From Roseospira marina (lineage in GTDB: Bacteria > Pseudomonadota > Alphaproteobacteria > Rhodospirillales > Rhodospirillaceae), in the NCBI RefSeq assembly GCF_014197855.1, contig NZ_JACIGJ010000003.1, positions 124,001 through 188,000 on the forward strand: 64,000 bases of DNA, given 5' to 3'. Position 1 is the stretch's first letter. Each line of letters begins with the position of its first letter. The translations under genes were made by a program, and so were the position numbers. Under the pieces are notes generated by a model that was not told where the DNA came from, did not search any database, and saw nothing but the letters and a program-made list of their open reading frames with translations. Of this stretch, positions 1,031 to 37,654 are shown piece by piece.

Positions 1031-4000
1031 ATGGCGGATCCCGCCGACCGGCTCGCACCGCACGCGCAAAAGCCCGCGCCTCCGCCCCGCCGCCGTCGTC
1101 GCTGGCTGCGGTGGGTGGGAGCCCTGGCGCTGGTCTTTGTTGTCCTTTTGGCGGGGCTGGCCGGCGCCGCGTGGTGGGTCCTGCGCACCGAAAACGGTCG
1201 GGCGTGGCTGACCGCCACCGCGCTGGACGCGATTAACGGCAGCGGCGCGGTCACGGTGCGCTTGGGCGCCCTGGAAGGCGACCTGCCGTTCTCCCTTGTA
1301 CTGCGGGACCTGACGGTGACCGACCGCGACGGCCCGTGGCTCAGCGCGGACCGGCTGGCGCTGGCCTGGGAGCCCTGGGCCCTTCTGGGCGGCCGCCTGC
1401 ATGTGCGCGCGATCAGCGCCACCGCCCTGTCCGTCGAGCGACCGCCCAACCTGCCGCCCTCCGACACCCCGGAGGAGCCCGAGGACGACGCCGGGATGGG
1501 CTTCGATCCGCGCACGCTGGGGCTGCTTCGGGTTGACCGGATCGCGTTCGAGGGCGTGCACCTGGGCGAGGCGCTGGTCGGGCAGCCGGTGCTGCTGGAC
1601 GTCACCGGCCAGTTGGCGCCCGAGGGCACAGCCGACGCGCCTGATGCCATCACCGCCCGCCTGGACGCCCGCCGCATCGACGGTCACCCCGGGGATGCGC
1701 GGATCGGTGTGACCCTGAAGGGCCCGGATCTCGACCACCTCGCCGTGGATATCCGGGCCGCCGAGGACCAGGGCGGCATGGTGACCACCTTGGCAGGCCT
1801 GCCCGGCGCCGCCGCCTGGACCATCGGCCTCCAGGGGGACGGACCGATGGCGAACTGGCGGGGCACCCTGAGCGCCGACGCCGAGGGGCTGGCCGACCTG
1901 TCCGGCGCCCTCGCCCTGAACGTCGCCGATCTCGACGCGCCCTCCGTCACCCTATCGGCCACGGCCCAACCGCAGGAGGGTGCGCCGCCGGCATGGCAGG
2001 CCGCGCTGACGGAGCAGTTGGATCTGGCGCTCTCAGCCGCCCTGGACGACGACGGACGCATCACGCTGAGCGACCTGCGGCTGGCGAACGGCGCGCTGGA
2101 GGTCACGGGTTCGGCCACCGCGGATCCGGCCGCCGACACCGTCTCGGCCCGGCTGGAGACCGCCCTGACGCACCCCGACCGACTGGCGCCCCTGGTCGCC
2201 CTACCGCTGGACCGTGGAACCGCCATCGTCACCGCCGAGGGGCGGCTGACGGCGCCCACGGTGACGGCGCAGCTACAGACGGAGGGCCTGAGCGCCGGGG
2301 TCGGCGCCGACGCGCTGGCCCTGGACACCACCGTGACGCCGGATGGCCCCCTGGACGACGACGGGACTACCCTCGCCTTCGATCTGCGCGCCCACGCCGA
2401 GGGCCTGAGCGGTCCGCAGGTGGTGGCCGACCTGTTCCCCCACCCGCTCGACCTGACCGGCGCCGGCACGGTCGCGCTGGCGGACCGGCGCGTGACGGTC
2501 CAGACGCTGCGGCTGTCGGATGACCAGGGCGTGGCGCTGGACGTGACCGCCGAGGCTAAGCTCGCCCCGTCGCTTGACGGAACCGCCGAGGCGAACCTCA
2601 CCCTGTCCCGCCTGGACCGGCTCGGCCCCGTGCTGGGCGGGCTGTCGCCGCGGGGGTCCGGTCTGGTGACCCTGTCCGACGTCACCCTCAACGCCGACGC
2701 CGTGGTGGCGGGCGATGTCCGCCTCGCGTTGGAGAACGCGAGCCTGGGCCTTCCGCAGGCCGACGCGGCGTTGGGCCCCGCCCCCACTCTGACGGCGCGC
2801 GTGACCTTCGACCCGGCGGCCGGGCTGACGGTGCGCGATCTGGCGCTGGACGGTGGCGCCGCCACGCTCGCCGGCGAGGCGACGATTCCGGCTGATTTCG
2901 CGGCGCTGGAGGCGGTTTTCACGGCCGACCTGACCGACCTGGGCATGGTGGTGGGCGACGCCTTGCGGGGGCCGCTGACGCTGGACGCCCAGCTTTCGGG
3001 GCCGCTGGCCGATCCAAACCTGACCGCCACGGCGCGGATGGTGACCGCCACCCTGGGCGGACAGGCCTGGGACGACATCGCCCTGGAGGCCACCGCCGAG
3101 GGTCTGGCGCGTGGGCCGTCCGGGGCGCTATCGCTCACCGGCTCGGGGCCCGGGGGTGTGGTTGACCTGACCATGGACTACGCCCTGCCCCAGTATGCCC
3201 GCCTATCATTCACGGAGCTGTCCGGGCGGATCCCGGGCACCCGGCTGACCGGTCAGGTCTCCGCCGATCTGGCCACACTGCTGGCGGACGGCGCCCTGCG
3301 CCTCGCCGTGGAAGAACCGGGCCGGCTGGCGGATTGGGGAGCCCCGCCCCTGGCCGGATCGCTGACCGCCGATGTCGTGCTCACCCCGTCGCCGGAGGGC
3401 CGCCAGAGTGTTACCGTGACGGCCGCCGCGCCCACCTTGCGGCTGCCGGACGGGGACGTGACGCTGGGCGCGCTGGATGTGCGGGCGGCGCTCACCGATG
3501 CGCTGGGCACGCCGGCCCTGGACGCCACCGTGACGTCAAGCGGCGGCGGCGCGGCCGGCCTGACGTGGGAGCGCCTGACCGCGACCGCGCGGGGGCCGCT
3601 CGCCGATCTCGCGGTCACGGCCGACCTGACTGGCGACGGTCCAACCGGCGCCCTCACACTCGCCACCGCCGCCCGGGTCCAGCCGCCCGGCCTCGCGGAG
3701 ACCGCACAGGTTCGCCTGGAGCGCCTGGACCTGGAGACGCAGGGCCACGCCATCACCCTGCGCCAGCCGGGCACCCTGAGCCTCGTCGACGGCGCGCGCG
3801 TTGATCGTCTGGTGCTGGGCCTGGACGACGGCACCCTGACCGTATCGGGCGGCCAGGGCGGCAACGGTCTGGATGTTTCCGTGACGGCGGAGGGGCTGCC
3901 GCTGGCCCTGACGGACCTCGCGGCGCCGGACCTCGGCCTGGGCGGTCGCCTGGACCTGTCGGCGACGCTCTCCGGCCGCCTGCCCACCCCGCGCGGCACC

Positions 4001-5548
4001 CTCACCCTGACCGGGCGGGACGTCACCCTGGACGGCACCACCGACAGCCCGCCGCTGACGGCCGAGGTCACGGGACGCCTGGAGGGGGGCCGCCTGACGG
4101 CCGACGCCACCCTGCGCGGGCTGGCCGATACCCCCGGGCGCATAACCGCCGATGTGCCGGTGCGGCTGGGCGGTGGGACGGTGATCCCCGACTCCCAGCC
4201 GCTATCCCTGTCGGCGCAATGGAACGGCCCAATCGGCGCGGTGTGGGAGATGATTCCCATGGTCGTGGAACACCGCCTGTCGGGCGCACTGGCGTTGGAT
4301 GCCACCGTCTCCGGCACCCTGGCGGCCCCGGCCGTGAACGCCACCGTACAGCTGTCCGACGGCCGCTATGAGCATCTGTCCGCCGGCACCCTGATCGACA
4401 CCCTGTCGCTCGACGCGCGCGCCCAGGGCACGGACCACCTTGCCGTCACGCTGTCGGGAACCGATGGCGGCAACGGCCGACTTGAGGGCGACGGCGATAT
4501 CCAACTGACCCCGGACGGCCCGGTGGGCGGGGTCCACGCCCGCCTGGACGACATGATCGTCGTGCGCCGCGACGATGTCACCGCCAGCGCCGACGCCACC
4601 ATCGATGTCCGGCTGGAGGGCGACCGGGGCGCCGTCACCGGCGACATCCGCACCCGCGAGGTGCGCGTCGACCTGAACGCCATTGCCGGCGGTGGCTCCG
4701 TCACCACGCTGGATGTGGTGGAGATCGACGATGCAAACCTCGACGACCTGTCCGCGCTCGACGCCGGATCGCCCCGCCCGGACGGCGGCGGCGTCAGCGG
4801 AGACGATGCCCCGGACGAGGACACCGCCTTTCCGATCGCCCTCGACCTCACCGTGGACATGCCAAACCGGGTGTACGTCACCGGCCAGGGGCTCGACTCC
4901 GAATGGGCCGGCTCCCTGAAGATCGGCGGCACGGCGGCGATCCCGCGCGTGACGGGCACCATCGGAATCCGGCGCGGCAGTTTCGAGGCCGTGGGCAAGC
5001 AGTTGAACATCGAAACCGGAACCGTGCAGTTCGCCGGCGGCCGCCAGATCAATCCCCTGCTCGATGTGGTCGCGGTCTATCAGGCGGAGGAGATCGAAGC
5101 CCGCGTCGGCTTGACCGGCCCGGCCAACGATCCGGAGATCGTGCTGGACTCCGTGCCGCCGCGCCCGCGCGACGAGGTGCTGTCGCAAATCCTGTTCGGC
5201 AAGTCGAGCGGCGAGTTGACCACGCTGGAGACCGTACAGTTGGCCCGCGCCCTGGCCTCGCTGACCGGCGTGACCGGCGGCGGCGGCCCGGACGTTCTGG
5301 GGATGGTGCGCGGCGCGGTCGGCCTGGACGTGCTGCGCCTCGGCGGTGATGTGGCGGCCGGCGGCGCTGGGTTGGAGGCCGGACGCTACGTCAGCGACGA
5401 CATTTATGTCGGGGTCGAGCAGGGCCTGGAGCCGGGCAGCGGCGGCGTCACCGTCGAGGTGGACCTCGGCGCCGGCTTCAAGGTAGAGAGCAAGGCCGGC
5501 CGTGCCGGCGATGGTGAGGTGGGTGTGTTGTGGCGCAAGGACTATTGA
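1031..5548 (+). CDS. tamB: TamB, translocation/assembly module inner-membrane protein
   Basis: This 1505-residue protein has an N-terminal basic stretch and one membrane anchor (about residues 20-50, WVGALALVFVVLLAGLAGAA). A very long repetitive beta-rich body follows, and the C-terminal 350 residues match the TamB (DUF490) domain, with segments such as RITGTIGIRRGSFE-like and QILFGKSSGELT. The frame is open upstream to 977, but ATG 1031 directly follows the tamA stop and gives the usual N terminus. TamB spans the periplasm as a hydrophobic groove and works with TamA in barrel assembly and phospholipid transport. The tamA-tamB order and near-zero spacing are typical for proteobacteria. A short acidic insertion (about 4740-4840) falls just before the conserved domain. 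Confidence 0.92.
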   Translation: MADPADRLAPHAQKPAPPPRRRRRWLRWVGALALVFVVLLAGLAGAAWWVLRTENGRAWLTATALDAINGSGAVTVRLGALEGDLPFSLVLRDLTVTDRDGPWLSADRLALAWEPWALLGGRLHVRAISATALSVERPPNLPPSDTPEEPEDDAGMGFDPRTLGLLRVDRIAFEGVHLGEALVGQPVLLDVTGQLAPEGTADAPDAITARLDARRIDGHPGDARIGVTLKGPDLDHLAVDIRAAEDQGGMVTTLAGLPGAAAWTIGLQGDGPMANWRGTLSADAEGLADLSGALALNVADLDAPSVTLSATAQPQEGAPPAWQAALTEQLDLALSAALDDDGRITLSDLRLANGALEVTGSATADPAADTVSARLETALTHPDRLAPLVALPLDRGTAIVTAEGRLTAPTVTAQLQTEGLSAGVGADALALDTTVTPDGPLDDDGTTLAFDLRAHAEGLSGPQVVADLFPHPLDLTGAGTVALADRRVTVQTLRLSDDQGVALDVTAEAKLAPSLDGTAEANLTLSRLDRLGPVLGGLSPRGSGLVTLSDVTLNADAVVAGDVRLALENASLGLPQADAALGPAPTLTARVTFDPAAGLTVRDLALDGGAATLAGEATIPADFAALEAVFTADLTDLGMVVGDALRGPLTLDAQLSGPLADPNLTATARMVTATLGGQAWDDIALEATAEGLARGPSGALSLTGSGPGGVVDLTMDYALPQYARLSFTELSGRIPGTRLTGQVSADLATLLADGALRLAVEEPGRLADWGAPPLAGSLTADVVLTPSPEGRQSVTVTAAAPTLRLPDGDVTLGALDVRAALTDALGTPALDATVTSSGGGAAGLTWERLTATARGPLADLAVTADLTGDGPTGALTLATAARVQPPGLAETAQVRLERLDLETQGHAITLRQPGTLSLVDGARVDRLVLGLDDGTLTVSGGQGGNGLDVSVTAEGLPLALTDLAAPDLGLGGRLDLSATLSGRLPTPRGTLTLTGRDVTLDGTTDSPPLTAEVTGRLEGGRLTADATLRGLADTPGRITADVPVRLGGGTVIPDSQPLSLSAQWNGPIGAVWEMIPMVVEHRLSGALALDATVSGTLAAPAVNATVQLSDGRYEHLSAGTLIDTLSLDARAQGTDHLAVTLSGTDGGNGRLEGDGDIQLTPDGPVGGVHARLDDMIVVRRDDVTASADATIDVRLEGDRGAVTGDIRTREVRVDLNAIAGGGSVTTLDVVEIDDANLDDLSALDAGSPRPDGGGVSGDDAPDEDTAFPIALDLTVDMPNRVYVTGQGLDSEWAGSLKIGGTAAIPRVTGTIGIRRGSFEAVGKQLNIETGTVQFAGGRQINPLLDVVAVYQAEEIEARVGLTGPANDPEIVLDSVPPRPRDEVLSQILFGKSSGELTTLETVQLARALASLTGVTGGGGPDVLGMVRGAVGLDVLRLGGDVAAGGAGLEAGRYVSDDIYVGVEQGLEPGSGGVTVEVDLGAGFKVESKAGRAGDGEVGVLWRKDY

Positions 5549-26554: not shown

Positions 26555-26665
26555 GGACCGGCTTACGGGGCCCTCCCTCAGGGTCGGGCGCCACGCGCCC
26601 GAAGAACCGTCAGAAGCGGGCGCGCGCCCGAAGAACCGTCAAGAGCGGGCGCCACGCGCCCGCAG
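26555..26665. repeat. Palindromic direct repeats between yejF and larB
   Basis: After a small CGTAAG/CTTACG hairpin at the yejF stop, a unit of about 30 bp (GGGCGCCACGCGCCC plus GAAGAACCGTCA) occurs at 26586-26617, again slightly shortened at 26618-26646, and a third partial copy (26647-26663) runs into larB. Each copy contains a GGGCGC/GCGCCC stem. The repeats lie between convergent operons and supply the stop and last codons of larB. Confidence 0.75.
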
Positions 26666-27292
26666 GGCGGCGCAGGCGGCGCCATAACCGTTGTCGATGT
26701 TGGTCACCAACAGGCCGGGCGCGCAGCTTGACAGCGCGGCGTTCAGGGCGACCTGACCGCCCGCCGCCACGCCATAGCCCACGGATGTCGGCACGGCGAT
26801 CAGCAGGCCGGGGAGCAGCCCGCCCGCCACCGTGAACAGCGCGCCTTCCATGCCGGCCACCAGAATCACGGTCGAGAAGGCGGCCAGGGACTCCCGGATT
26901 TCCATCAGGCGCCAGAGGCCCGCCACCCCGACATCCGCGTACAGCACGGCGGGGCAGCCGGAAAAGCGCAGGGTGCGCAGGGCCTCCGTCGCCACCGCGA
27001 GATCGGCCGTCCCCCCGGTGACGATCGCCACGGGATCCGTCGCGTCCGCTGATGGCATGTCTCCCAACACCGCCGTGCGCGACAGGGGATCGTAGTCCAG
27101 CGCCTCGCGCAGATCCTGGGGCAGCGCGGCCCGCGCGGCGGCGTCCAGGCGCGTCAGCAGGCAGCGGCCGTGCGCCGCCCGCGCGGCCCCGGTCGCCGTG
27201 GCGATCTGGATGGGGGTTTTGCCGGTGCAGAACACCGCCTCCGGCAGCCCGATGCGGCGCACCCGGTCGGCATCGAACCGAACGTCCGGCAT
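26639..27292 (-). CDS. larB: LarB, nickel-pincer cofactor biosynthesis carboxylase/hydrolase
   Basis: This 217-residue protein has the C-terminal AIR-carboxylase (PurE-like) fold of LarB, with VTGGTADLAVATEA, YADVGVAGLWRL, VAGMEGALFTVAGGL and VPTSVGYG. LarB carboxylates nicotinic acid adenine dinucleotide and releases AMP, the first step of nickel-pincer cofactor synthesis. The frame is open to 27586, but ATG 27292 overlaps the larE stop (TAATG) and gives the expected N terminus (RIGLPEAVFCTGKT). It is somewhat shorter than Lactobacillus LarB (about 246). Its last codons lie in the downstream palindromic repeat. Confidence 0.9.
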   Translation of the reverse strand: MPDVRFDADRVRRIGLPEAVFCTGKTPIQIATATGAARAAHGRCLLTRLDAAARAALPQDLREALDYDPLSRTAVLGDMPSADATDPVAIVTGGTADLAVATEALRTLRFSGCPAVLYADVGVAGLWRLMEIRESLAAFSTVILVAGMEGALFTVAGGLLPGLLIAVPTSVGYGVAAGGQVALNAALSSCAPGLLVTNIDNGYGAACAALRARGARS

Positions 27293-28104
27293 TACTCGGC
27301 GGCCTTCAGCGCGGGATGGGCGGCACTGCCCATGGCGTAGCGCGCCAGGGTGACCGGACGTCCCGGCGCCCGCACCCGCAGCCCGGCCAGCAAGGCCGTG
27401 CGCCCGCCGACATCCAGCGCATCCAGCGCCGCCGCGTCCAGCTCCACCACCAGGCCCGCGCGGCGCACCCGGCAGCGCACCGTTTGCGGCCGCAGCCAGT
27501 CGCGGATCCAGCCCTCGACCGTATGGGCTAGGGCGAGGTCTTCGGCCTCGACCCGCAAACCGGTCTCGATCCGGCTCGACAGGCACGGCGCCGCCGGCAG
27601 CGTCGCCACGTCCCCCAGGCCAAGCGCGGCGGCCAGGGCCCGCACGGCCGCCTTGTCCAGGCCGGCCTCGACGAAGGGGTGACGCACGCCGCGTTCCCCG
27701 GCCGCCGTCAGGCCAGGGCGGATGTCGTTCAGGTCATCGAAGTTGGTGCCGGATAGGATCGTCCGCCCGGGCGCGGCGTGCGCGGCCGCATCGTACAGAT
27801 GGCCCTTGCAGATATAGCAGCGGTCGGCGCCGTTCCGGCGGTAGCGCGGATCGGCGAATTCCCCGGAGTCCAGCACGATCAGGGACCAGCCGTGCGCCGC
27901 CGCCAAGGCGCGGGTGCGGGCCGTGGCCTCCGCCGGCACCGCCGGTGAGGTCGCATGCACGCACAACAGATCGACGCCCACCCGGGCCGCCGCCGCCGCC
28001 AGGGTCAGGCTGTCCACGCCCCCGCTGACCGCCACGGCGCAGGGCGACACGGCCCGAAGCACCGTCGCGAGAGCGTGCGGAACAGGGGCGCCGTCTCGAG
28101 TCAT
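27292..28104 (-). CDS. larE: LarE, ATP-dependent sulfur insertase for the nickel-pincer cofactor
   Basis: This 270-residue protein belongs to the PP-loop ATPases: SGGVDS at 27-32, then DRCYICK (Cys96, Cys99) and a conserved Cys174 in PCLSSR. Cys174 aligns by position with the sacrificial cysteine (Cys176) of Lactobacillus plantarum LarE, so this is probably the single-turnover type that gives up its own sulfur; that alignment is by eye. LarE converts the LarB product into the bis-thiolated pincer. ATG 28104 overlaps the larC stop by four bases (ATGA). Confidence 0.92.
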   Translation of the reverse strand: MTRDGAPVPHALATVLRAVSPCAVAVSGGVDSLTLAAAAARVGVDLLCVHATSPAVPAEATARTRALAAAHGWSLIVLDSGEFADPRYRRNGADRCYICKGHLYDAAAHAAPGRTILSGTNFDDLNDIRPGLTAAGERGVRHPFVEAGLDKAAVRALAAALGLGDVATLPAAPCLSSRIETGLRVEAEDLALAHTVEGWIRDWLRPQTVRCRVRRAGLVVELDAAALDALDVGGRTALLAGLRVRAPGRPVTLARYAMGSAAHPALKAAE

Positions 28105-29486
28105 AGGGGCTCCTCCTTGTCATCCACATCGCTCAACGCCTCAGCTCCCGCCGTGTGGCGGTGGCGCGCCCGATGGCTGGCCCCGCTGATACCGGCCAGC
28201 GCGTCCGCCTCCAGCTTGACGGAGGACACCCCGCCGGGCCGAGCCGCCACTTTCACCGGCCCGACCGAGGTGCCGCGCGCGCGGCGCGCCAGGATGGTGC
28301 GATCCATGATCTGGTGCCGCACCCCCAGCGTCGTCGTCTCATGCAGGCAAGCGGAAACGACGTCGGCGTACGTTTCGGGCCGGCAGAGCACCTGCACCTG
28401 AGTCGCCAGCCGGCCCTTCTTCAGATAGGCGGGCGCTTGCAGCACGTCCAGGACACCGGTCGTGCGGCGCAGGTGGTCGAGGCCCAACGCCAGATCCTCC
28501 GGCGACTGGTCGTCGACCTCGAAGGTCAGCACGGCCACGCGGTCGGTCGGCAGAGCCGGCGCGTCGGTCTGGTCCCCAGCCTCGCGCTCCAGCACCAGCG
28601 CACGCAGAACATTGCTGCGGCCCGGAAGGCGCCGGGTGCCGAACCCGGTTCCGACACCGCTGATCGTGAGCAACCCGGCGGGCCGCATCGACGTGGGCGC
28701 CAGATGCCGCATCAGCGCGGCGCCCGTGGGCGTCACGCGCTCCCCATCGATGCCGTCGTCGATCACCGGCAGGCCCGCCAGCAGCAACGCCGTCGCGGGT
28801 GCAGGCACCGGCACCGGTCCGTGCGCGGTGTTCACCAAACCGCTGCCCAGCGGCAAGGGTGCCAGAGACCATGTGGTCGGTCCCAGCGCCTCGATCACCG
28901 CCGCGGCGCCGACCACGTCGGCGATGGAGTCCCAATCGGCGATCTCGTGAAAGCTCACATCTTCGACCGCCTTGCCGTGCACCCGTGCTTCGGCTTCGGC
29001 AATCAGCGTGAAAATCGCAATGGCCCGCGCGCGCACGCCCGCCGCCAAGGGCGCGGCTTCCAGCCGGGCCCGGATGTCCGCCCAGCGGCCCGTCGCGTGC
29101 GTGTGTGCATGAGTCTCGGTGTGCGCGTGGGTGTGCGCGCGGGTGTGCGTGTGGGCGTGTGCCTCCGCATGGGCATGACCATGGGTATGCGCGTGAGCAT
29201 GCCCATGAGCGTGATGATGATGGTGGTGATGGTCGGCATGCTCCGACTCGGCGGCCATCTCCGGTCCCCGCACCTGAAAGCGCCGCCCGGTCAGCACGCC
29301 GTCGCCGTACGCCTCAACGTGCAAAACCCACCCCTCGGGCAGACCGGCGGCGGCCACCGCCGCGCGCATGGCGGACTCGTGTTCCGGGAAAGCGTCCAGC
29401 AGGGCAGCGATCAGCATGTCGCCGGCCACGCCACCGACCGGATCGAGATGGATGTGCCGCGTCGGGCTCGTCACGGACTCCGTCAC
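28101..29486 (-). CDS. larC: LarC, nickel insertase with a very His-rich loop
   Basis: This 461-residue protein starts with GTG 29486, overlapping the larA stop (GTGA). The N-terminal motif HLDPVGGVAGDMLIAALLD is the LarC signature. Residues 83-130 contain 24 histidines, many in His-Ala or His-Thr alternation, far denser than needed for catalysis and likely to hold Ni2+. The C-terminal half carries the CTP-dependent cyclometallase region. In L. plantarum the two halves are split and joined by a programmed frameshift; here they are one frame. LarC inserts nickel into the LarE product using CTP. The frame continues upstream to 29696, antisense to nothing useful and within larA, so the internal start is preferred. 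Confidence 0.92.
   Translation of the reverse strand: MTESVTSPTRHIHLDPVGGVAGDMLIAALLDAFPEHESAMRAAVAAAGLPEGWVLHVEAYGDGVLTGRRFQVRGPEMAAESEHADHHHHHHHAHGHAHAHTHGHAHAEAHAHTHTRAHTHAHTETHAHTHATGRWADIRARLEAAPLAAGVRARAIAIFTLIAEAEARVHGKAVEDVSFHEIADWDSIADVVGAAAVIEALGPTTWSLAPLPLGSGLVNTAHGPVPVPAPATALLLAGLPVIDDGIDGERVTPTGAALMRHLAPTSMRPAGLLTISGVGTGFGTRRLPGRSNVLRALVLEREAGDQTDAPALPTDRVAVLTFEVDDQSPEDLALGLDHLRRTTGVLDVLQAPAYLKKGRLATQVQVLCRPETYADVVSACLHETTTLGVRHQIMDRTILARRARGTSVGPVKVAARPGGVSSVKLEADALAGISGASHRARHRHTAGAEALSDVDDKEEPL
29097..29240 (-). repeat. Low-complexity DNA encoding the LarC histidine stretch
   Basis: On the plus strand the segment is an alternation of GTG and GCG/GCA-like triplets (for example GTGTGCGCGTGGGTG). 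It encodes seven consecutive histidines followed by His-Ala, His-Thr and His-Gly pairs. The repetitive composition suggests growth by slippage. Confidence 0.85.
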
Positions 29487-30766
29487 GCGGCACCCCCCAG
29501 CACCGGGATCACATACGGCCCCTCCGGCACCACGGCCACCGACGTATCCCCGTGGCGCGCCACACTGGCGTGCACGGCGGCGGTCAGGTCGGGCACGCTC
29601 TCCACCCCTGTCAACTCCAGAGCGTCGCCCAGCCGGGGCGCGTACAATCGAATGGTGCCGCGTCGCATGGTGCGGATCTGCATCTGGGTCTGCCACTCAT
29701 CGATGTCGGCGAAGTCCTTGCGGGCGATATCCTCCAGGAAGCCGTCCACGCCACGGTCGAGCAGGCGGCGCTGCGCCTCCACATAGGCGCCCGAGCCCAT
29801 GCCCTCGCTGCAATCCGAGGCGATGATGAGGTCGCCGCCCTCCTCCAGGATGTCCAGCGGCCCGACCATGCCCTTGACGGTCTGATAGTACGTCTTGTCG
29901 AGCGGATAGCCCGCCGCCGAGGTCACCACGGTGTGGAACCGACGCGGCACCGAGACGGCCGCGTAGGCGCGCACGAAGTCCACGGCCTTCAGATGGCTTT
30001 CGACGATCTCGCCGTAGGTCACGGTGCAGGGCCGGCGGTGGTCATCGATCACCACGTTGAGCGCCAGAGCGCCGCCCACCTTCTCCACGATCGCCAGTTG
30101 CTCCCGGTGCAGCGGGTTGCCGTCCAGAACGCAGTTCGCCGCACGCGGGTGCGCCATGAAGGCGTGATTGTGAAACGTCGTGATCGTGTCCCGGTGCGCC
30201 ACGCCGGGGGCGATCACCTTGCGGCCCCCGGACCAGCCGGCCATGAAGTGCGGCTCCACCAGCCCGGTCGCGATGCGCACATCGGCCTCGACGAAGCGGC
30301 GGTCGATGCGCACCGGCGTGCCATGGGCCGTCGGCCCCAGATCCACATGGGCGTCGTCGTCCAGGGCGAAGTGGTTCTCGACCCGCACCGTCTCCAGGAC
30401 CCAGGGGTCGCCCACCACCTCGGCCAGTTCGTCGTCGAGGTTCGGGCGATGCAACCCGGTCGCCACCAGGATCGTGATGCCGTCCGCCGGGACGCCAGCG
30501 TCCAACAGCGTCCGCACAAGGGGCGGCAACAAGAGCCCGTTGGGCACCGGGCGAGTGACATCGCAGATCAGGATGCAGGCGGTGCGGGCACCGCGCGCGC
30601 TTTCGATCAGCGGAGCGGCGCCGGTGGGCTGCCCCAACACGCGCTCGACCGCGCCGACCGGATCGGCCAGCACCGGCATGGCGGCCTTTTCGATCACCGT
30701 CACGTCCCAGGTGTCGGGCAGGTCCAGCGGCACCGTTGCCTTACCGTACAGCAGTTCGATGCGCAT
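29483..30766 (-). CDS. larA: LarA-family nickel-pincer 2-hydroxyacid racemase/epimerase
   Basis: This 427-residue protein keeps the key residues of L. plantarum lactate racemase at nearly identical positions: DVTRP (Arg72, cf. Arg75), ATGLHRPN (His106, cf. His108), EPHFMAGWSGGRK (His173 and Lys183, cf. His174 and the pincer-bound Lys184), TFHNH (His199, cf. nickel ligand His200) and TYYQTVKG (Gln295 and Lys298, same numbers). The fold removes and returns a hydride at the alpha carbon. LarA homologues act on lactate, malate, phenyllactate, hydroxyglutarate or sugar acids, so the substrate must come from context. Here a glycerate kinase and a TRAP importer precede it and no lactate dehydrogenase is present, which points to glycerate. 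Confidence 0.9.
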   Translation of the reverse strand: MRIELLYGKATVPLDLPDTWDVTVIEKAAMPVLADPVGAVERVLGQPTGAAPLIESARGARTACILICDVTRPVPNGLLLPPLVRTLLDAGVPADGITILVATGLHRPNLDDELAEVVGDPWVLETVRVENHFALDDDAHVDLGPTAHGTPVRIDRRFVEADVRIATGLVEPHFMAGWSGGRKVIAPGVAHRDTITTFHNHAFMAHPRAANCVLDGNPLHREQLAIVEKVGGALALNVVIDDHRRPCTVTYGEIVESHLKAVDFVRAYAAVSVPRRFHTVVTSAAGYPLDKTYYQTVKGMVGPLDILEEGGDLIIASDCSEGMGSGAYVEAQRRLLDRGVDGFLEDIARKDFADIDEWQTQMQIRTMRRGTIRLYAPRLGDALELTGVESVPDLTAAVHASVARHGDTSVAVVPEGPYVIPVLGGAA

Positions 30767-30834
30767 GACCTCACCTCCGATTGGGATCGTGCGTCCCCCT
30801 GTCTCGGGGGGACTTGACGCTCAGGATGGGGCGC

Positions 30835-32001
30835 TCAGGATCGGGCGCCGGGTTCCGTCCGGATCCGGGCACCCACCGCCAGGACGCGAACCATCTGTTC
30901 CACCGTGTCCGTCATCAGCCGCCCCGCTTCGGCCATGGCGGCCTCCAGCGTCATCGGCCCCGGCACGATGGGAAACACAGCCTCCAGTCCGGCCGCATGC
31001 ACGGCGGACAGATCGTCCGCGCGGCTGCCCGCCAGACAGAGGCAGGGAATGCCGCGCGCGCGGGCGCGGCGGGCGGCGGCGGCGGGCGCCTTGGCGTAGG
31101 CCGTCGAGGCATCGACCCGCCCTTCGGCGGTCAGCACCAGCGCGGCCCCGTCCAGCGCGGCATCGAAGCCGACCAAGTCCAACACCAGCTCGGCCCCCGG
31201 CTTGAGCGTCGCGCCCAGGAACACCCGCAGGCCCATGCCCAGGCCACCGGCCGCGCCCGCGCCGGGTTCATCGCGCACGTCCACGCCCAGGTCCCGCGCC
31301 GCCACATCGGCGAGATGCGCCAGACCGGCGTCGAGGGTTGCGACCATCTCCGGGTCCGCCCCCTTTTGCGGGCCGTAGACCGCCGAGGCCCCGTTCGGCC
31401 CCAACAAGGGATTGTCGACGTCGCAGACCACTTCGATCCGCAGGTCCTGCAGGCGCGGGTCCAGACCCGAGACGTCCACGCTCTCAATCGCGGACAGGCT
31501 GGCGCCCACCGGCTCCAGCGGCTGCCCGGCCGCATCCAGGAAGCGGACGCCGAGGGCGGCGGCCATGCCGATCCCGCCCTCGTTGGTGGCACTGCCCCCG
31601 ATCCCGACCACGAGATGCTCAATCCCACGGTCGAGCGCGGCGGCGATCAGCGCGCCCGTGCCCTGGCTCGACGTCCGCAATGGGTTGCGCTGGGACGGCG
31701 GCACCAACGCCAGACCGCTGGCCGCCGCCATCTCCACCACCGCCAGTCGGCGGTCGGGCACGAGACAGTAGGCGGCCTCCACCGTTTCGCCGAGCGGACC
31801 GGGCACCGCGACCCGCTCCATCCGCCCGCCCATGGCCTCGCGGGCCACCTCGGCGAGGCCGTCGCCCCCGTCCGCGATGGGCAGGGGGACGGTCTCGGCG
31901 TCGGGCCAGACCCGCCGCACGCCCTCGGCCATGGCCGCCGCCGCCTGGGCGGCGCTCAGGCTTTCCTTGAGAGCGTTGGGGGCCAGAACCACCTTCGTCA
32001 T
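30835..32001 (-). CDS. glxK: Glycerate 2-kinase (GlxK/GarK family)
   Basis: This 388-residue protein starts MTKVVLAPNALKESLSA and shows the family motifs ADGGDG, GIGGSATNEGG, YGPQKGA and EGRVDAST. GarK/GlxK enzymes phosphorylate D-glycerate to 2-phosphoglycerate, feeding it into lower glycolysis. It lies 25 bp after dctM and 68 bp before larA, in one operon. The stop falls in the second copy of a 14-bp tandem duplication (CGCTCAGGATGGGG at 30818-30831 and a one-mismatch copy at 30832-30845). Its presence between importer and racemase is the main reason to propose glycerate as the pathway substrate. Confidence 0.92.
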   Translation of the reverse strand: MTKVVLAPNALKESLSAAQAAAAMAEGVRRVWPDAETVPLPIADGGDGLAEVAREAMGGRMERVAVPGPLGETVEAAYCLVPDRRLAVVEMAAASGLALVPPSQRNPLRTSSQGTGALIAAALDRGIEHLVVGIGGSATNEGGIGMAAALGVRFLDAAGQPLEPVGASLSAIESVDVSGLDPRLQDLRIEVVCDVDNPLLGPNGASAVYGPQKGADPEMVATLDAGLAHLADVAARDLGVDVRDEPGAGAAGGLGMGLRVFLGATLKPGAELVLDLVGFDAALDGAALVLTAEGRVDASTAYAKAPAAAARRARARGIPCLCLAGSRADDLSAVHAAGLEAVFPIVPGPMTLEAAMAEAGRLMTDTVEQMVRVLAVGARIRTEPGARS

Positions 32002-32026
32002 CGTCGACCCTCCTTCCCCGGGCGCC

Positions 32027-33592
32027 CTACAGACCGGACCCGTAGGCCAGCTCCGGCAGCCAGAGCACCAACCGCGGGAACAGCACGCAGAGGGTCAGGA
32101 CCACCACCTGCAAGGCCAGGAACGGCAGGGTCGACTTCAGGATGGTCGCGGTCGGGATCTCCTCCGGCGTGACGCCGCGCAGGAAGAAGATAGCGTAGCC
32201 GAAGGGCGGCGACAGGAAGCTCATCTGCATGTTGACGAGATAGATGACGCCGAACCACAGGGCCACCTCGGATCCCGGCACGCCCGGCAGACCGAACACC
32301 CCGTTGAACTCCAGCGACGTGATGATCGGCAGGAAGATGGGCACCGCGAGAAGCAGAATGCCGACCCAGTCCAAGAACATGCCCAGCACGACCAGGATCA
32401 CCATCATGATGCACAGGATGGTGTACGGCCCAAGGCCGGTGCCCAGGATCATGTCGGAGACGAACTGCTGCCCGCCCTGAAGGACATAGAAGCCGACGAA
32501 GATGCTGGCGCCGAACATGATCCACAGGACCATGGCGACCTGCTTCATGGTGCTGATGCAGGCTTGGCTGATGCCGGCCAGGGTCAAGCGGCGATGAATG
32601 GCGGCGACGATGATGGCGCCCAGGCTGCCCACGCCAGCGGCCTCCACGGGGGTCGCCAGGCCGGTGAAGATCACACCCAGCACGGTGACGATCAGGATGA
32701 TCGGTGCCAGCATCTTGCGCAGCAGAACAAGCTTCTCGGCGAACGTGACCCGCTCGTGCTCGTCCAGCGCCGGCCCCATCTCGGGATGCAGCCAGCAGCG
32801 CAGGGTGACATACAGCACATAGCAGCCGGACAGCAGCAGGCCGGGCACGACCGAGCCGGCGTACAGCTCTCCCACGGACTCCTGCGCCACGACGGCGTAG
32901 ATGATGGCCAGGATCGACGGCGGGATGAGGATACCCAGCGTGCCGCCGGCCATGATCGAACCCAGGGCGATCTTGTGGTCGTAGTTGCGCTTCAGCATCG
33001 CCGGCAGGGCGATCAGGCCCATGGTGACCACGGCGGCGGCGATGATGCCCACCATGGCGGCCAGGATGGTCGAGGCGACGATGGCCGCCGCCGCCAGACC
33101 GCCGCGAATGCCGCCCAGCCACTTGTAGATCACATCGAACATCTCGTCGATGAGACCGGCGCGCTCCAGCATCGAGGCCATGAAGATGAACAGCGGAATG
33201 GCCGAAAGCTGGTAGTTCGTCATCATCGGGAAGACGCGCGACGGGATGATGTTCAGCATATACTGGTCACCGACCAGATAGATGAACACCACCGCCAGAC
33301 TGCCCGTGACGAAGGCGAGTGGCATGCCCAGCATCAGGAACAGCAGCAGCGCGCCGAACATCAGCACGGACAGCCACGAGATATCCACGCCTTGCAGACT
33401 GGACTGCAGGGTCCACAGGAACGGCTCGTCCTGATACGGGTCCAGGAACAGGATGTTGACGAGTTCCACGAAGACGGGGATCGCCAGGATCACCGTGCCC
33501 AGCACGACCAGCCAGGCGAACCGGCGCGATCCGCGCTTGGGGGCCGTGGGCACGTCCGCCCGCGGCGTGGTGTTTGCCAGGGCATCAGTCAT
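32027..33592 (-). CDS. dctM: TRAP transporter large permease (DctM)
   Basis: This 521-residue, strongly hydrophobic protein carries DctM landmarks such as LGMPLAFVTGSLAVVF near residue 70, SAIPLFIFMASMLERAGLIDEMF, the repeated GGTLGILIPPSILAIIYA and the C-terminal FLSPPFGYAIFFLRG. The large subunit is the Na+-driven elevator that moves substrate delivered by the periplasmic receptor. It is longer than the usual 425-440 residues, with extra material after residue 240 and at the C terminus. The ATG overlaps dctQ by 8 bp. Confidence 0.92.
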   Translation of the reverse strand: MTDALANTTPRADVPTAPKRGSRRFAWLVVLGTVILAIPVFVELVNILFLDPYQDEPFLWTLQSSLQGVDISWLSVLMFGALLLFLMLGMPLAFVTGSLAVVFIYLVGDQYMLNIIPSRVFPMMTNYQLSAIPLFIFMASMLERAGLIDEMFDVIYKWLGGIRGGLAAAAIVASTILAAMVGIIAAAVVTMGLIALPAMLKRNYDHKIALGSIMAGGTLGILIPPSILAIIYAVVAQESVGELYAGSVVPGLLLSGCYVLYVTLRCWLHPEMGPALDEHERVTFAEKLVLLRKMLAPIILIVTVLGVIFTGLATPVEAAGVGSLGAIIVAAIHRRLTLAGISQACISTMKQVAMVLWIMFGASIFVGFYVLQGGQQFVSDMILGTGLGPYTILCIMMVILVVLGMFLDWVGILLLAVPIFLPIITSLEFNGVFGLPGVPGSEVALWFGVIYLVNMQMSFLSPPFGYAIFFLRGVTPEEIPTATILKSTLPFLALQVVVLTLCVLFPRLVLWLPELAYGSGL

Positions 33593-34280
33593 GACGAGCC
33601 TCCACGGGCGCTTCGACCAGAAACAGGCGTTGCAGATCCTTGATGAACTGGGCGGCGCCCTGGAGCAGCAGCAGGATCGCGCCGATCACCATGGTGGCCT
33701 TGATGGGCGCGTAGCTGATGCGCCACTCGCTGGACGACATGTCGTTGCCGTAGCCCTGACCGAAGAAGTACTGCGACTGGTCCACGGCCTGGGCGAAGAA
33801 GGTCCAGGACGTGCTCAGGAAGACGACCATGTAGAACAGGAACAGGACCGAGGTCAGCACGTCGATCGCCGCCTGCCCCTGGGGCGACAGCTTGACGTAG
33901 ACCACATCGACGCGCACGTGGGCGTGGGTCAGCAGCCCGTAGGCGCCCGCCATCACGTACATCATGCCGAACATCAGGAACGAAGCTTCATGCGCCCAAT
34001 TGGTCGGGGCGTTGAAGAAGTAGCGCGCCGTGACCTCGAACACGTAGTACCCGACCGCGATGACGGTCCAGTAGCTGGCGAATACACCGCACACGTGGGA
34101 GACCCGGTCCATGATCCGGGTGAACGCATTGCCCGGCACCGGCGAGGGCGCCGCCGCCGGCATCGGGGTTCCATGATCGCGGCTGGGGAACAGGGCCACC
34201 GCCCCCATGATTAGAAGCGGAACCGCCACCAACAGGCCCCAGTAGAGCCAGTGTGGCAGGACGAAGCCAGACTGCACCAT
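33585..34280 (-). CDS. dctQ: TRAP transporter small permease (DctQ)
   Basis: This 231-residue protein has four membrane helices of the DctQ type with the EVTARYFFNAPTNWAHEASFLMFGMMYVMAGAYGL-like core (about residues 80-115), the EA/W cluster that packs against the large permease. An extra N-terminal hydrophobic segment (LYWGLLVAVPLLIMGAVALF) makes it longer than average. It lies between the receptor and DctM genes of the same TRAP system. Confidence 0.88.
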   Translation of the reverse strand: MVQSGFVLPHWLYWGLLVAVPLLIMGAVALFPSRDHGTPMPAAAPSPVPGNAFTRIMDRVSHVCGVFASYWTVIAVGYYVFEVTARYFFNAPTNWAHEASFLMFGMMYVMAGAYGLLTHAHVRVDVVYVKLSPQGQAAIDVLTSVLFLFYMVVFLSTSWTFFAQAVDQSQYFFGQGYGNDMSSSEWRISYAPIKATMVIGAILLLLQGAAQFIKDLQRLFLVEAPVEARHD

Positions 34281-34376
34281 GATCGCCTCCGCGATCCGAA
34301 CGGATAGGGAAAGGCCGCCGGCGGCGGGATCCCACAGACCGTGGATCCGCGCCGGCCGGCGGCAGAGCGAGACCGC

Positions 34377-35531
34377 CTAGAGCTTCAGTTCGAAGCCTTC
34401 GATATCGGCCGGGTCGATCAGGGCGACGGTCGGATCCTGCATCAGCGCCAGATGCTTCTGGAAGATGCGGGCGGCCATCGGATCGGCGTTGGCCCACTTG
34501 AACCACAGCGGAATGGAGACCTTGCGGAACGCCGTGGCGTCCTCTTCCGGCAGGCGGGTGACGGACACGCCGGCCTCGGCGTACTTCGCCCAACTGGCGG
34601 CGTTGGCCTCCTGGATTCCTGTGTAGTGCACACGCGAGTAAGCGTTGACCATGTCGGTGAGCAGTTCCTGCATCTGCGGGCGCAGGGAATCCCAAACGCG
34701 GCGGCTGAAGGCCACGTCCATCGGGTCCACGGCCTGATGCAGACAGGGCGACGAGGTCGGTCCCATCACGATATACTTGGCGACCTGCTGGAAGCCCAGG
34801 TCATAGTCCACGGCTGGCCCGACATAGTCGGCAGCGTCGATGGTGCCCTTCTCCAGCGCCGGATAGACCTCGGAGCCGGGAAGCAGGGTGGTGCGTGCGC
34901 CGATGGCCGCGAAGCATTCGGCGATGATGCCGCCGGGCATGCGGATCTTCAGGCCCTCGAAGTCCTTCAGCGAGCTGATCGGCTTCTTCGAGTGGATCAC
35001 GTTCATGTCGTGATGCACGAGGCCGACCCACTCCAGACCCTGCTGGCGGTACAGCTCGCGGGCGATGTCGGCGACGCCGAAGGAGTAGAACAGCATGTCC
35101 CAGTGGTGCGGATGCGGCGGGCCCATCGGGAAGCCGGTCAGGAACACCGCCGCCGGCATGCGGCTGACCCAATAGGTCGTGAACAGGTTCATGGCGTCGA
35201 GCACGCCGTTGCGCACGGCGTCGAACAGTTGGAAATCACCGGAGACGGACCCGGCCGGAAACGGCTGAAAGGCCAACTCGCCGCCCGTCACCTCTTTCAC
35301 ACTGGCGCACCAGGTTTCGAAAATCTTGTATCCCGTCGTCCCGGGCTGCCACGAGGTCTGGATACGGATGTTCCGCGTCTGCCCGGCGGCCGTGGCGAGG
35401 CTCGGCATCGACAGGCCGGTCGCGGCCACCGCCGCGCCACCGACAGCGGCGGAGGACAGGAACCGACGGCGCGACGCAACGCGGTCGTCGGTGGGAGGCG
35501 AGGCAGTCGTCTTGCGCGTATCACCGGACAT
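34377..35531 (-). CDS. dctP: TRAP transporter substrate-binding protein (DctP/TakP-like)
   Basis: This 384-residue protein has a twin-arginine signal (SRRRFLSSAAVGG then AATGLSMPSLATAAG), so it is exported folded. The mature part begins IRIQTSWQPG and contains FPAGSV, the conserved arginine segment LKIRMPGG (carboxylate binding in TRAP receptors) and the FEVWDS-like C-terminal half. The overall pattern resembles the TakP group, whose members bind 2-oxo or 2-hydroxy monocarboxylates, sometimes with Ca2+ or Na+; this is a judgement by eye. It would hand a small hydroxyacid to DctQM. It is the first gene of the operon, preceded by the candidate GntR operator. Confidence 0.9.
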   Translation of the reverse strand: MSGDTRKTTASPPTDDRVASRRRFLSSAAVGGAAVAATGLSMPSLATAAGQTRNIRIQTSWQPGTTGYKIFETWCASVKEVTGGELAFQPFPAGSVSGDFQLFDAVRNGVLDAMNLFTTYWVSRMPAAVFLTGFPMGPPHPHHWDMLFYSFGVADIARELYRQQGLEWVGLVHHDMNVIHSKKPISSLKDFEGLKIRMPGGIIAECFAAIGARTTLLPGSEVYPALEKGTIDAADYVGPAVDYDLGFQQVAKYIVMGPTSSPCLHQAVDPMDVAFSRRVWDSLRPQMQELLTDMVNAYSRVHYTGIQEANAASWAKYAEAGVSVTRLPEEDATAFRKVSIPLWFKWANADPMAARIFQKHLALMQDPTVALIDPADIEGFELKL

Positions 35532-35639
35532 GGGGCTTCCTCCTTTTTATGGCCCTGCCGAAGCGGTTGTGATCACGCCCGGCCGGACGAATGACGAGGA
35601 TGGTAAGCCCGCCGTCAGCGGAATGACAATCACGTGATC

Positions 35640-35650
35640 TGTATTACAAC
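35640..35650. promoter_or_regulatory. Candidate FadR-type GntR operator
   Basis: The 11-bp sequence TTGTATTACAA is a perfect palindrome and fits the FadR-subfamily consensus t.GTa.tAC.a at every fixed position. It lies about 110 bp upstream of dctP, in an AT-richer gap, next to the gene of a FadR-type regulator. An imperfect second copy (TTTGTATGATC, near 35670) and a separate 10-bp palindrome (ATCACGTGAT, 35629-35638) flank it. Confidence 0.65.
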
Positions 35651-35802
35651 AACACAACTACCGCCGAAATTTGTATGATCCTTTCGACGGCGCACCTAAT
35701 GAACTTACAGGCTTTCCGCCACTGCGTGCGACCAATCGAAATGCGTTCGCATTGATCTGTCTTGAAGTATGACAACCAGACATCTTCGGCGGGTGTCGCG
35801 AA

Positions 35803-36501
35803 TCAGGCGGCGGCGCCGGACCCGAAAATGCGGTGGCGGGCGTTCATCAGGTGCGCGCGCATGGTCGCGCGGGCCGTCGTGGAGTCCCCGGCCTGGATGG
35901 CGTCGAGCACGCGGGCGTGTTCCTCGACGCTGCGGGTCAAGTGTTCCTCCGCAAAGGCGGGCGCGAGGTTGCGGCTCAAGTTGATGCCGAACAGGACATG
36001 CACCTCGATCGACCGCAGCATGCCCCCGAAGAACTGGTTGCGGGCGGCGGCGGCCACGGCGAGGTGAAACGCCATGTCTTCTTCGCCACCCGTGGATTCC
36101 ATCGCCACGGCGTCACGAAACGACAGATGGGCCTGCCGCAGCGTCGGCAGCGTGGTGGCGTCGCGCCGCTCGGCGGCCAGAAACGCCGCCTCCCCTTCCA
36201 TGGAAATGCGAAACTCGAAACAGCGGTTGAGGTCGGCGATGGAGGACACCGGCCCGAAGGTGGGCGGGGCCGACGCACCGGTGGGCCGCTGCACGAAACT
36301 GCCCGCACCGCGCCGCGAGACCACATACCCCTTCTCGCGCAGGCGGAACAGGACCTCGCGCACCACCGTGCGAGAGACGGCGTAGGACGAACATAGGTCC
36401 GCCTCGCTCGGCAGCCGCTGCCCCACCGTGAACTGGCCGGAGATGATCCGTCCGACCATCTCGTCGTAAATCTGATCGCTCAGGGTCGCGCGTCTGGACA
36501 T
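35803..36501 (-). CDS. GntR-family regulator, FadR/FCD subfamily
   Basis: This 232-residue protein has an N-terminal winged helix (residues 8-70: LPSEADLCSSYAVSRTVVREVLFRLREKGYVVSRRGAGSFV in pattern) and an all-helical FCD ligand-binding domain. The FCD metal site residues are visible: Asp142, His146, His195 and His217. Regulators of this group often sense organic acids such as lactate, glycolate or malonate. It is upstream of and co-directional with the TRAP-glxK-lar operon and most likely represses it until the acid is present. ATG 36501 is chosen; the frame extends to 36561 without family similarity. Confidence 0.9.
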   Translation of the reverse strand: MSRRATLSDQIYDEMVGRIISGQFTVGQRLPSEADLCSSYAVSRTVVREVLFRLREKGYVVSRRGAGSFVQRPTGASAPPTFGPVSSIADLNRCFEFRISMEGEAAFLAAERRDATTLPTLRQAHLSFRDAVAMESTGGEEDMAFHLAVAAAARNQFFGGMLRSIEVHVLFGINLSRNLAPAFAEEHLTRSVEEHARVLDAIQAGDSTTARATMRAHLMNARHRIFGSGAAA

Positions 36502-36625
36502 CGTGGGGTGCCTTGGAGGAGTTCTGCCCCGGGCCTCGTGCCCTGGTCCCCACAGTGCCACGGCGCCGCCCCCCAGAAAACAAGATCCGGGAACGCGGCA
36601 TCCGACCGCTCCGGCGTGCCGACGC

Positions 36626-37654
36626 TCAGCGCACCGCCTGCACGCCGATCGCCAGGCCGTACAGCCCCAGCATGGCCACGCTCTCGAACCCGATGCCGGC
36701 GATGCCGCGACGCTCCCGCACCACCAGGCCCAGAAGCAGGACCGCCGTCATGGCTGCCCCCAACGCGACCCAGAACAGGTCGCCGCCGCCCACCGCGTGG
36801 TACAGCGACCCGTCCCGGTAGGCGATATCCGAGGCGGACAGGAACAACACGTCGAAAATGTTGCCGCCGATGATGCCGCCGATGGCCAGTTGCAGCGCCC
36901 CACGCCGCACCGCCGCCAGCGTCGTGATGAGTTCCGGCAGCGAGGTCGCCACGGCGGTCAACAACGCGCCGATGGCCGTTTCGGAGATCCCCAACTCGTC
37001 GGCCAGCCGACCGCCGGTCTTGGAAATCACCCAGCCCGACACGCCCAGAAGCAGCGCCAACACAAGGAACTGGGCCAGCAGGGGCCAAGGGCCCCCGCCG
37101 CTGTCCGGGCTTTCGTCCGGCGTGTCGTGGCGCGTCTCGCGGGTCGTGACGGGGTGCCACATCGGGTCCTCGCGCACGCGGGCGGTGGTGCGCATGCCCA
37201 ACACATAAACCACCACCAGCACCACGGACACCGGATGCACACCCCAGAGGGTGAAATCCGGCCCGGTCGCGGCCAGCATGGGCAAGGCAAGCATGAACGT
37301 CAGCACCGCCGCCTGCACCACACTGGCAATCTCGGCGGCGGCGTGCTCCATGTTGGCGCGGCGAAACAGCAGATCCGCGATGGCCAAAAACGCCGTCTGC
37401 GCGGCGATGCCCCCGACCGCGTTGGCGAACGCCAGCGAGGGCCGCCCGTCCACCGCCGCCGTCACGGACACCACGACGCCTGACAGCGACGTCGCCAGCC
37501 CGAGCAGGATCCCGCCGATCAACGCCTCCCCCAGACCGGTGCGGTCGCCCAGACGGTCGGCCAGATCGGCCATGCGCACACCAAGCAGCGCGATGAGGAG
37601 GCCAGCGCCCCCGAACAGGCCGAAGGTCACCGGTAACGAGAGGGTGTCGATCAT
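36626..37654 (-). CDS. Sodium/calcium exchanger-family membrane protein
   Basis: This 342-residue protein has ten or so membrane segments in two inverted halves, each with the CaCA alpha repeat: GEALIGGILLGLATSLSGVVVS (about residue 41) and ETAIGALLTAVATSLPELITTLAAVRRG (about 227), followed by GGIIGGNIFDVL. Such proteins exchange Ca2+ or other cations for Na+ or H+. In the first repeat the usual acidic residue of the GT(S)LPE motif is replaced by Gly (TSLSG), so ion selectivity may differ. A hydrophilic loop of about 35 residues separates the halves. Confidence 0.87.
   Translation of the reverse strand: MIDTLSLPVTFGLFGGAGLLIALLGVRMADLADRLGDRTGLGEALIGGILLGLATSLSGVVVSVTAAVDGRPSLAFANAVGGIAAQTAFLAIADLLFRRANMEHAAAEIASVVQAAVLTFMLALPMLAATGPDFTLWGVHPVSVVLVVVYVLGMRTTARVREDPMWHPVTTRETRHDTPDESPDSGGGPWPLLAQFLVLALLLGVSGWVISKTGGRLADELGISETAIGALLTAVATSLPELITTLAAVRRGALQLAIGGIIGGNIFDVLFLSASDIAYRDGSLYHAVGGGDLFWVALGAAMTAVLLLGLVVRERRGIAGIGFESVAMLGLYGLAIGVQAVR

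Follow-up and report, generated by a model that had tools for sequence, protein, structure and literature searches.

A Roseospira marina gene cassette joining a nickel-pincer racemase to a glycerate kinase and a TRAP importer, with a probable role in the use of both glycerate enantiomers

A cassette of nine genes lies on the minus strand, at positions 26639 to 36561, of a 64,000-nucleotide stretch of the Roseospira marina genome (contig NZ_JACIGJ010000003.1, positions 124,001 to 188,000; referred to here as the window). In transcription order, it encodes an FCD-GntR regulator, a tripartite ATP-independent periplasmic (TRAP) importer (dctP, dctQ, and dctM), a class I glycerate kinase (glxK), a racemase that depends on the nickel-pincer nucleotide (NPN) cofactor (larA), and the makers of that cofactor (larC, larE, and larB). 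Racemization of L- and D-glycerate feeding the glycerate kinase, with glycerate as the main substrate, is the best explanation of this arrangement and, judged from sequence, a probable one. The regulator gene and the eight genes of the operon are all open reading frames (ORFs), as follows.

35803-36501, minus strand: FCD/GntR-family transcriptional regulator (PF07729 [FCD], 82.9 bits; PF00392 [GntR], 66.9 bits)
34377-35531, minus strand: dctP, TRAP solute-binding protein of the TTHA0766 (calcium-lactate) family (PF03480, 155.6 bits; best PDB match 2zzv, 405.6 bits)
33585-34280, minus strand: dctQ, TRAP small permease subunit (PF04290, 73.9 bits)
32027-33592, minus strand: dctM, TRAP large permease subunit (PF06808, 260.9 bits; TIGR00786 above cutoff)
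30835-32001, minus strand: glxK, class I glycerate kinase (PF02595, 472.3 bits; TIGR00045, 450.5 bits)
29483-30766, minus strand: larA, NPN 2-hydroxyacid racemase (Lar_N PF09861, 192.7 bits; LarA_C PF21113, 56.9 bits)
28101-29486, minus strand: larC, nickel insertion into the cofactor (PF01969, 315.4 bits; TIGR00299 and NF052512 above cutoff)
27292-28104, minus strand: larE, sacrificial sulfur transferase (TIGR00268, 233.4 bits; cutoff, 150)
26639-27292, minus strand: larB, NPN biosynthesis carboxylase/hydrolase (NF033503, 227.9 bits; cutoff, 175; start by the coding-score caller)

Gaps separate the regulator from dctP (∼271 bp), dctP from dctQ (96 bp), dctM from glxK (25 bp), and glxK from larA (68 bp), and the remaining neighbors overlap (dctQ/dctM by 8 bp, larA/larC and larC/larE by 4 bp each, and larE/larB by 1 bp with the coding-score larB start). 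The leftward operon with its FadR/FCD regulator, as drawn in the original prediction, was borne out by the open frames, by the domain scores, and by a matching gene order in Roseospira visakhapatnamensis. LarB, LarC, and LarE are all encoded in the larA operon, each above its NCBIfam cutoff. The larC product (28101-29486) carries a long His-rich stretch (HADHHHHHHHAHGHAHAH...), which could serve as a nickel store.

LarA belongs to the nickel-pincer racemase superfamily: Lar_N and LarA_C both score above cutoff, and, as predicted, every cofactor and catalytic residue checked is retained, i.e., the cofactor lysine K183, the nickel ligand H199, the catalytic histidines H106 and H173, the substrate Arg/Gln/Lys set R72, Q295, and K298, and Y294. 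The pocket consists of F174, M175, W358, and Q359 (F-M-W-Q). The closest solved relative is the broad-spectrum enzyme LarAIp of Isosphaera pallida (PDB 9eid, 336.5 bits). The protein falls below the NCBIfam equivalog cutoffs for nickel-dependent lactate racemase (NF033504; 339.6 bits against 460), malate (286.9 against 500 and 267.7 against 462), LarAH10 (233.4 against 540), and LarAH14/15/16 (58.8 against 740). LarA itself looks like a generalist, probably active on lactate also, and only the operon context indicates glycerate.

The cassette behaves as a unit within the genus. All nine genes are found in R. visakhapatnamensis with their order unchanged, and blastn of the window against that locus gave matches at 26651-30766 and 30878-36513 only, DNA similarity stopping at the cassette borders. 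In tblastx of the same pair, many short weak pieces (20 to 54 residues) appeared outside the cassette, which we take to be GC-rich noise. The congener's cassette has a DeoR-type regulator as its neighbor at one end and, at the other end, a gene with a tRNA-editing domain and a P-type ATPase; that of the window is flanked by a Na/Ca exchanger gene (36626-37654, upstream) and a peptide-type ATP-binding cassette (ABC) transporter. The exchanger gene was considered as a cassette member and rejected, as it is not beside the congener's cassette. Among 60 genomes, including that of R. marina, close homologues of LarA (84% identity), GlxK (84%), and DctP (87%) co-occur only in R. visakhapatnamensis. 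Four of five congeners have no LarA match; two of those four have kinases 43 to 45% identical, and no lar gene was matched in the 12 to 19 kb around these kinases. Since similarity ends at the borders, the flanks differ, and LarA-less congeners have no lar genes near their kinases, the cassette appears to be gained and lost as a whole within Roseospira.

Full-length matches above cutoff to PF02595 and TIGR00045 place GlxK in class I of the glycerate kinases, which are generally D-specific. A profile search of the genome gave glxK as its sole PF02595 gene and no gene for a MOFRL kinase (class III kinases lay outside the search), so that glxK may also serve other glycerate routes. GlxK passes an NCBIfam cutoff only at the subfamily level and does not reach the equivalog cutoffs. 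According to the sections of PMC2063504 drawn on here, the product of a class I enzyme is 2-phosphoglycerate or 3-phosphoglycerate, and the class is unrelated to the MOFRL kinases; for GlxK, 2-phosphoglycerate is probably the product.

With DctP, DctQ, and DctM all present and DctP homologous to TTHA0766, the importer is a TTHA0766-type TRAP transporter. DctP is 53% identical to TTHA0766, and 55 residues are invariant across 15 family members. Close DctP relatives (E values up to 1e-100) were found in 10 other genomes among 398 Pseudomonadota. At 4 of these 10 loci, from two families and with three of one genus, the importer precedes glcD/glcE with glcF or glcB; in these four (L111, L115, L116, and L117), a GntR-like regulator (29 to 32% identical to that of the window) accompanies dctPQM. 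In the window, glxK-larACEB occupies the place that the oxidase genes hold in the glycolate-linked TRAP operons. The other six loci have no glc-type genes, and seven neighboring proteins scanned there gave nothing informative. Some window DctP residues differ from those of the glycolate-linked relatives. Because DctP resembles a lactate-binding protein and has relatives beside glcD/glcE, the predicted importer supports a small 2-hydroxyacid as the substrate.

The pairing of larA with a glycerate kinase recurs elsewhere. Altogether, 126 loci were examined, 125 with a tblastn larA match (all except L188), and the stretch fetched included a glycerate kinase at 7; two pairs being duplicate loci, these amount to five distinct kinase-linked places besides the window, i.e., R. 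visakhapatnamensis, genome G224, Rhizobium ruizarguesonis, Rhodovastum atsumiense, and L077/L169. Genes were read with a codon-score caller, as simple-ORF and third-codon-position G+C calling gave antisense ORFs and missed genes; two loci of 47% G+C (L120 and L169), on which the codon-score caller failed, were read from ORF lists. The order is larA-glxK-larC-larE-larB in G224, where LarA is 28% identical to that of the window and has the pocket F-F-W-Q. On a plasmid of Rhodovastum atsumiense it is kdgT-larA-larC-larE-larB-class I kinase (with a KdgT-type permease), and on a plasmid of Rhizobium ruizarguesonis it is larA-larC-larE-larB-MOFRL kinase. At L077/L169, the MOFRL kinase gene is on the strand opposite larA and 4.3 kb upstream of it, and it entered the count as a nearby kinase and not as an operon member. 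Nothing close to the G224 operon turned up in the E. coli collection.

In 42 neighbor-blind loci (L118 to L121, L124 to L134, L164 to L187, and L189 to L191), a kinase lay ≤5 kb from larA in 4, of which 3 are operon-like, against 0.11 to 0.21 expected under a crude random model. The Poisson tail is 5e-6 to 7e-5 for four loci and 2e-4 to 1e-3 for three, under an assumption of random gene placement that catabolic genes do not follow. Ten of the 42 have <5 kb on one side, and 9 share their LarA with a locus among the 80 nearest; the set leaves out weak Lar_N matches (2 of 6 and 12 of 37 non-own), L188, and the plasmid records H3 and H16 (2 of 16). On a LarA tree built by a quick method, with long branches that include L120, L169, and L127, the kinase label needs five changes for six kinase-linked rows (44 of 500 shuffles required no more), and the pairing was therefore probably made more than once. 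We lean slightly toward a broader proposal, that a nickel-dependent glycerate pathway has arisen independently on several occasions, with LarAs of different subgroups, kinases of two unrelated classes, and TRAP or KdgT-type importers, and moves between species as a cassette.

Other features were seen at the larA loci. KdgT-family permeases (PF03812) adjoin larA in L118 (8847-9968), L119 (8640-9746), and L133 (2656-3663), one of these loci also having a glycerate kinase; such permeases may carry glycerate-like acids. At L033, L034, L060, L063, L079, L176, and L178, larA is near a thiamine diphosphate-dependent enzyme resembling glyoxylate carboligase at 23 to 27%; that of L034, the only one scanned, fits subfamily PRK08199 (863 bits). 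On Rhizobium and Phyllobacterium plasmids (L128, L132, L189, L190, and L191), larA is near a GarR/3-hydroxyisobutyrate-type dehydrogenase (only that of L128 was scanned); L128 and L132 also have an annotated ABC importer. At nine loci (L012 [3070-4404], L027, L030, L035, L038, L041, L052, L056, and L081), an F-M-W-Q-type LarA has a second, divergent LarA-like protein next to it or close by; that of L012, the only one of the nine scanned, scores 520 bits with the NCBIfam model for NPN isomerase group 22. The alphaproteobacterial LarA-like proteins of L186 and L187 have V and N at the two catalytic-His positions; both lie on very long branches, and the alignment there may be poor.

We propose that these genes together form a regulated unit for the catabolism of both L- and D-glycerate. 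DctPQM, the TRAP importer, would bring in glycerate; LarB, LarE, and LarC would make the nickel-pincer cofactor that charges LarA; and LarA would interconvert L- and D-glycerate by means of a hydride that the cofactor accepts and then gives back. GlxK would then phosphorylate D-glycerate, probably to 2-phosphoglycerate, draining the racemic pool into lower glycolysis. Glycerate is proposed as the substrate because a glycerate kinase is, apart from LarA, the one catabolic enzyme linked in the cassette, and glycerate fits both the chemistry of LarA, which acts on chiral 2-hydroxyacids, and the kinase. This sequence of import, racemization, and phosphorylation was the core of the original prediction and is still the best-supported reading, given the larA/glycerate kinase operons in three other lineages and an importer family tied to 2-hydroxyacids; the LarA sequence taken by itself does not point to it.

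The FCD protein, which is likely the local regulator of the cassette, would respond to the substrate. Its gene may start at 36501 (coding-score caller) or 36561, and the R. visakhapatnamensis counterpart, which occupies the equivalent position, is 83% identical. Two sites in the regulator-dctP gap are candidate operators.

35641-35649, minus strand: candidate operator TTGTAATAC, conserved in R. visakhapatnamensis (L100)
35767-35775, minus strand: second candidate operator TTGTCATAC, partly conserved in R. visakhapatnamensis (L100)

The TTGTNATAC motif common to the pair was picked after inspection of this gap; it occurs twice in the 64 kb, both times in the gap, against 0.15 occurrences expected.

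Glycerate racemization by LarA homologues is itself already published (2024; PMC11770544), and the original prediction was wrong in holding that no such racemase had been described. In the sections of that report drawn on here, LarAH43 has a slight preference for glycerate ([114 ± 20] × 10^3 M−1 s−1) over lactate ([83 ± 9] × 10^3 M−1 s−1), a Gln at the position of T359 in LarA1 is offered as the reason for this preference, and the physiological significance of such activities is stated to be open. The window LarA has Gln at the equivalent position. Glycerate had been named earlier as a possible LarA substrate in the portion of PMC7583248 considered here. Within open-licence PMC, no paper contains both “lactate racemase” and “glycerate kinase” and none contains “glycerate racemase”; supplements lay outside this search, and neighbor table S1 of PMC7583248 may list a kinase association.

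Several results weigh against glycerate as the main substrate. The F-M-W-Q pocket is present in 98 of 115 aligned LarAs, some of them beside lldP or lutABC-like genes, and the idea that the pocket residues prove glycerate specificity was rejected for this reason; the pocket would permit glycerate but is nondiagnostic. The conservation survey suggested with the original prediction gave a divided answer: the glxK-larA pair is kept in the congener, and among the nearest LarAs (the best 80 of 489 confirmed LarA loci) a window-type kinase stands beside larA only there. Wide conservation of the pair among the nearest LarAs (1 of 80 loci) was accordingly rejected; one further locus has a MOFRL kinase at a distance and outside the lar operon, and the others include loci with larBCE alone, with lldP within reach (L030, L052, and L056), or with unrelated genes. 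LarA genes are also uncommon, with Lar_N matches in 7 of 398 Pseudomonadota genomes and 28 of 385 alphaproteobacterial genomes, and G224-type LarA was found in 2 of 345 genomes of its order (G224 itself and one weak match). In genome G045, LarA (63%) and DctP (56%) homologues lie on different contigs, and there is no GlxK match. The statement that no lactate dehydrogenase is present holds for the operon, which also has no lldP-type permease, and could not be upheld for the genome, in which FAD-oxidase_C has matches elsewhere, three over the full model and one short, that are possible D-lactate or glycolate oxidases; FMN_dh gave partial matches only (best, 56.4 bits over model positions 205 to 310).

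These points bear most directly on a lactate-centered explanation, in which LarA is mainly a racemase of lactate (or short-chain 2-hydroxyacids), lactate is imported and oxidized by a flavin adenine dinucleotide-linked dehydrogenase encoded elsewhere, e.g., by one of the three full FAD-oxidase_C genes, and glxK acts independently, e.g., in D-glycerate salvage. The nearest PDB relative of DctP, TTHA0766 (2zzv), binds L-lactate (PMC8648760), and LarAIp acts best on L-lactate and 2-hydroxybutyrate and then on L-glycerate, in the part of PMC11851776 used here. The same F-M-W-Q pocket occurs in the LarAs near lldP (L030, L052, and L056) and in those of the alphaproteobacterial subclade near lutABC-like genes (L180 and L183). 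This explanation leaves a cassette with neither a lactate dehydrogenase nor an lldP-type permease, and it does not account for larA/glycerate kinase operons that recur in unrelated forms. Glycerate kinase is not known to use lactate productively. We regard a mainly lactate-based function as unlikely.

A broad scavenging unit, whose importer and LarA treat lactate, glycerate, and other 2-hydroxyacids alike while the kinase captures only the glycerate part, would be consistent with the generic pocket, with importer relatives beside glycolate-oxidase and malate-synthase genes, and with the promiscuity of LarA homologues in the sections of PMC11770544 and PMC11851776 considered. The only linked enzyme is, however, glycerate-specific, and glycolate, being achiral, cannot be a LarA substrate; such a unit seems to us quite improbable. 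It is very improbable that LarA acts on some other 2-hydroxy or 2,3-dihydroxy acid (e.g., 2,3-dihydroxybutyrate epimers) with a kinase shifted likewise: weak epimerization of such acids by LarA homologues (PMC11770544, in the same sections) and the placement of the kinase at the NCBIfam subfamily level would allow it, but the kinase scores 472 bits with PF02595 and 450 bits with the TIGR00045 glycerate kinase model, and no gene in the cassette lends support.

If glycerate is the main substrate, the new element is the building of LarA into a regulated cassette for glycerate import and phosphorylation. The cassette gives glycerate racemization by LarA a likely natural role and a concrete pathway, which makes its physiological role directly testable. 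Further, unassigned LarA homologues might be given a function on the basis of their linked kinases and not of their pocket residues, the latter being uninformative in this case.

The components have known counterparts, each of which differs in some respect. LarAIp/SAR (LarAH2 of Isosphaera pallida; 9eid and 9eia) has the same catalytic and cofactor residues and the same pocket Met175, Trp, and Gln and acts on L-glycerate (PMC11851776, as far as drawn on here), but it has Leu174 where the window LarA has Phe174 and prefers lactate and 2-hydroxybutyrate. LarAH43 of Enterocloster asparagiformis shares the Gln at the LarA1 T359 position and racemizes glycerate, an activity predicted for the window LarA; in contrast, it is a LAR-group enzyme, and the main text of PMC11770544 does not mention “glycerate kinase.” The lactate racemase operons of Lactobacillus, larABC(D)E, likewise provide LarA with its own LarB, LarC, and LarE makers, but they have a Crp/Fnr regulator, an aquaporin-type transporter, and Thr in the pocket and lack both a kinase and a TRAP importer. 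E. coli GlxK, like that of the window, is a class I enzyme with a full PF02595 domain (47% identity) but is linked to allantoin and glyoxylate genes rather than to a racemase. Finally, TTHA0766 (PDB 2zzv; 53% identity) and the glycolate-linked TRAP operons resemble the window in the importer and in the layout of a GntR-like regulator with dctPQM, but in these operons glcD/glcE and glcF or glcB take the place that glxK-larACEB has in the window.

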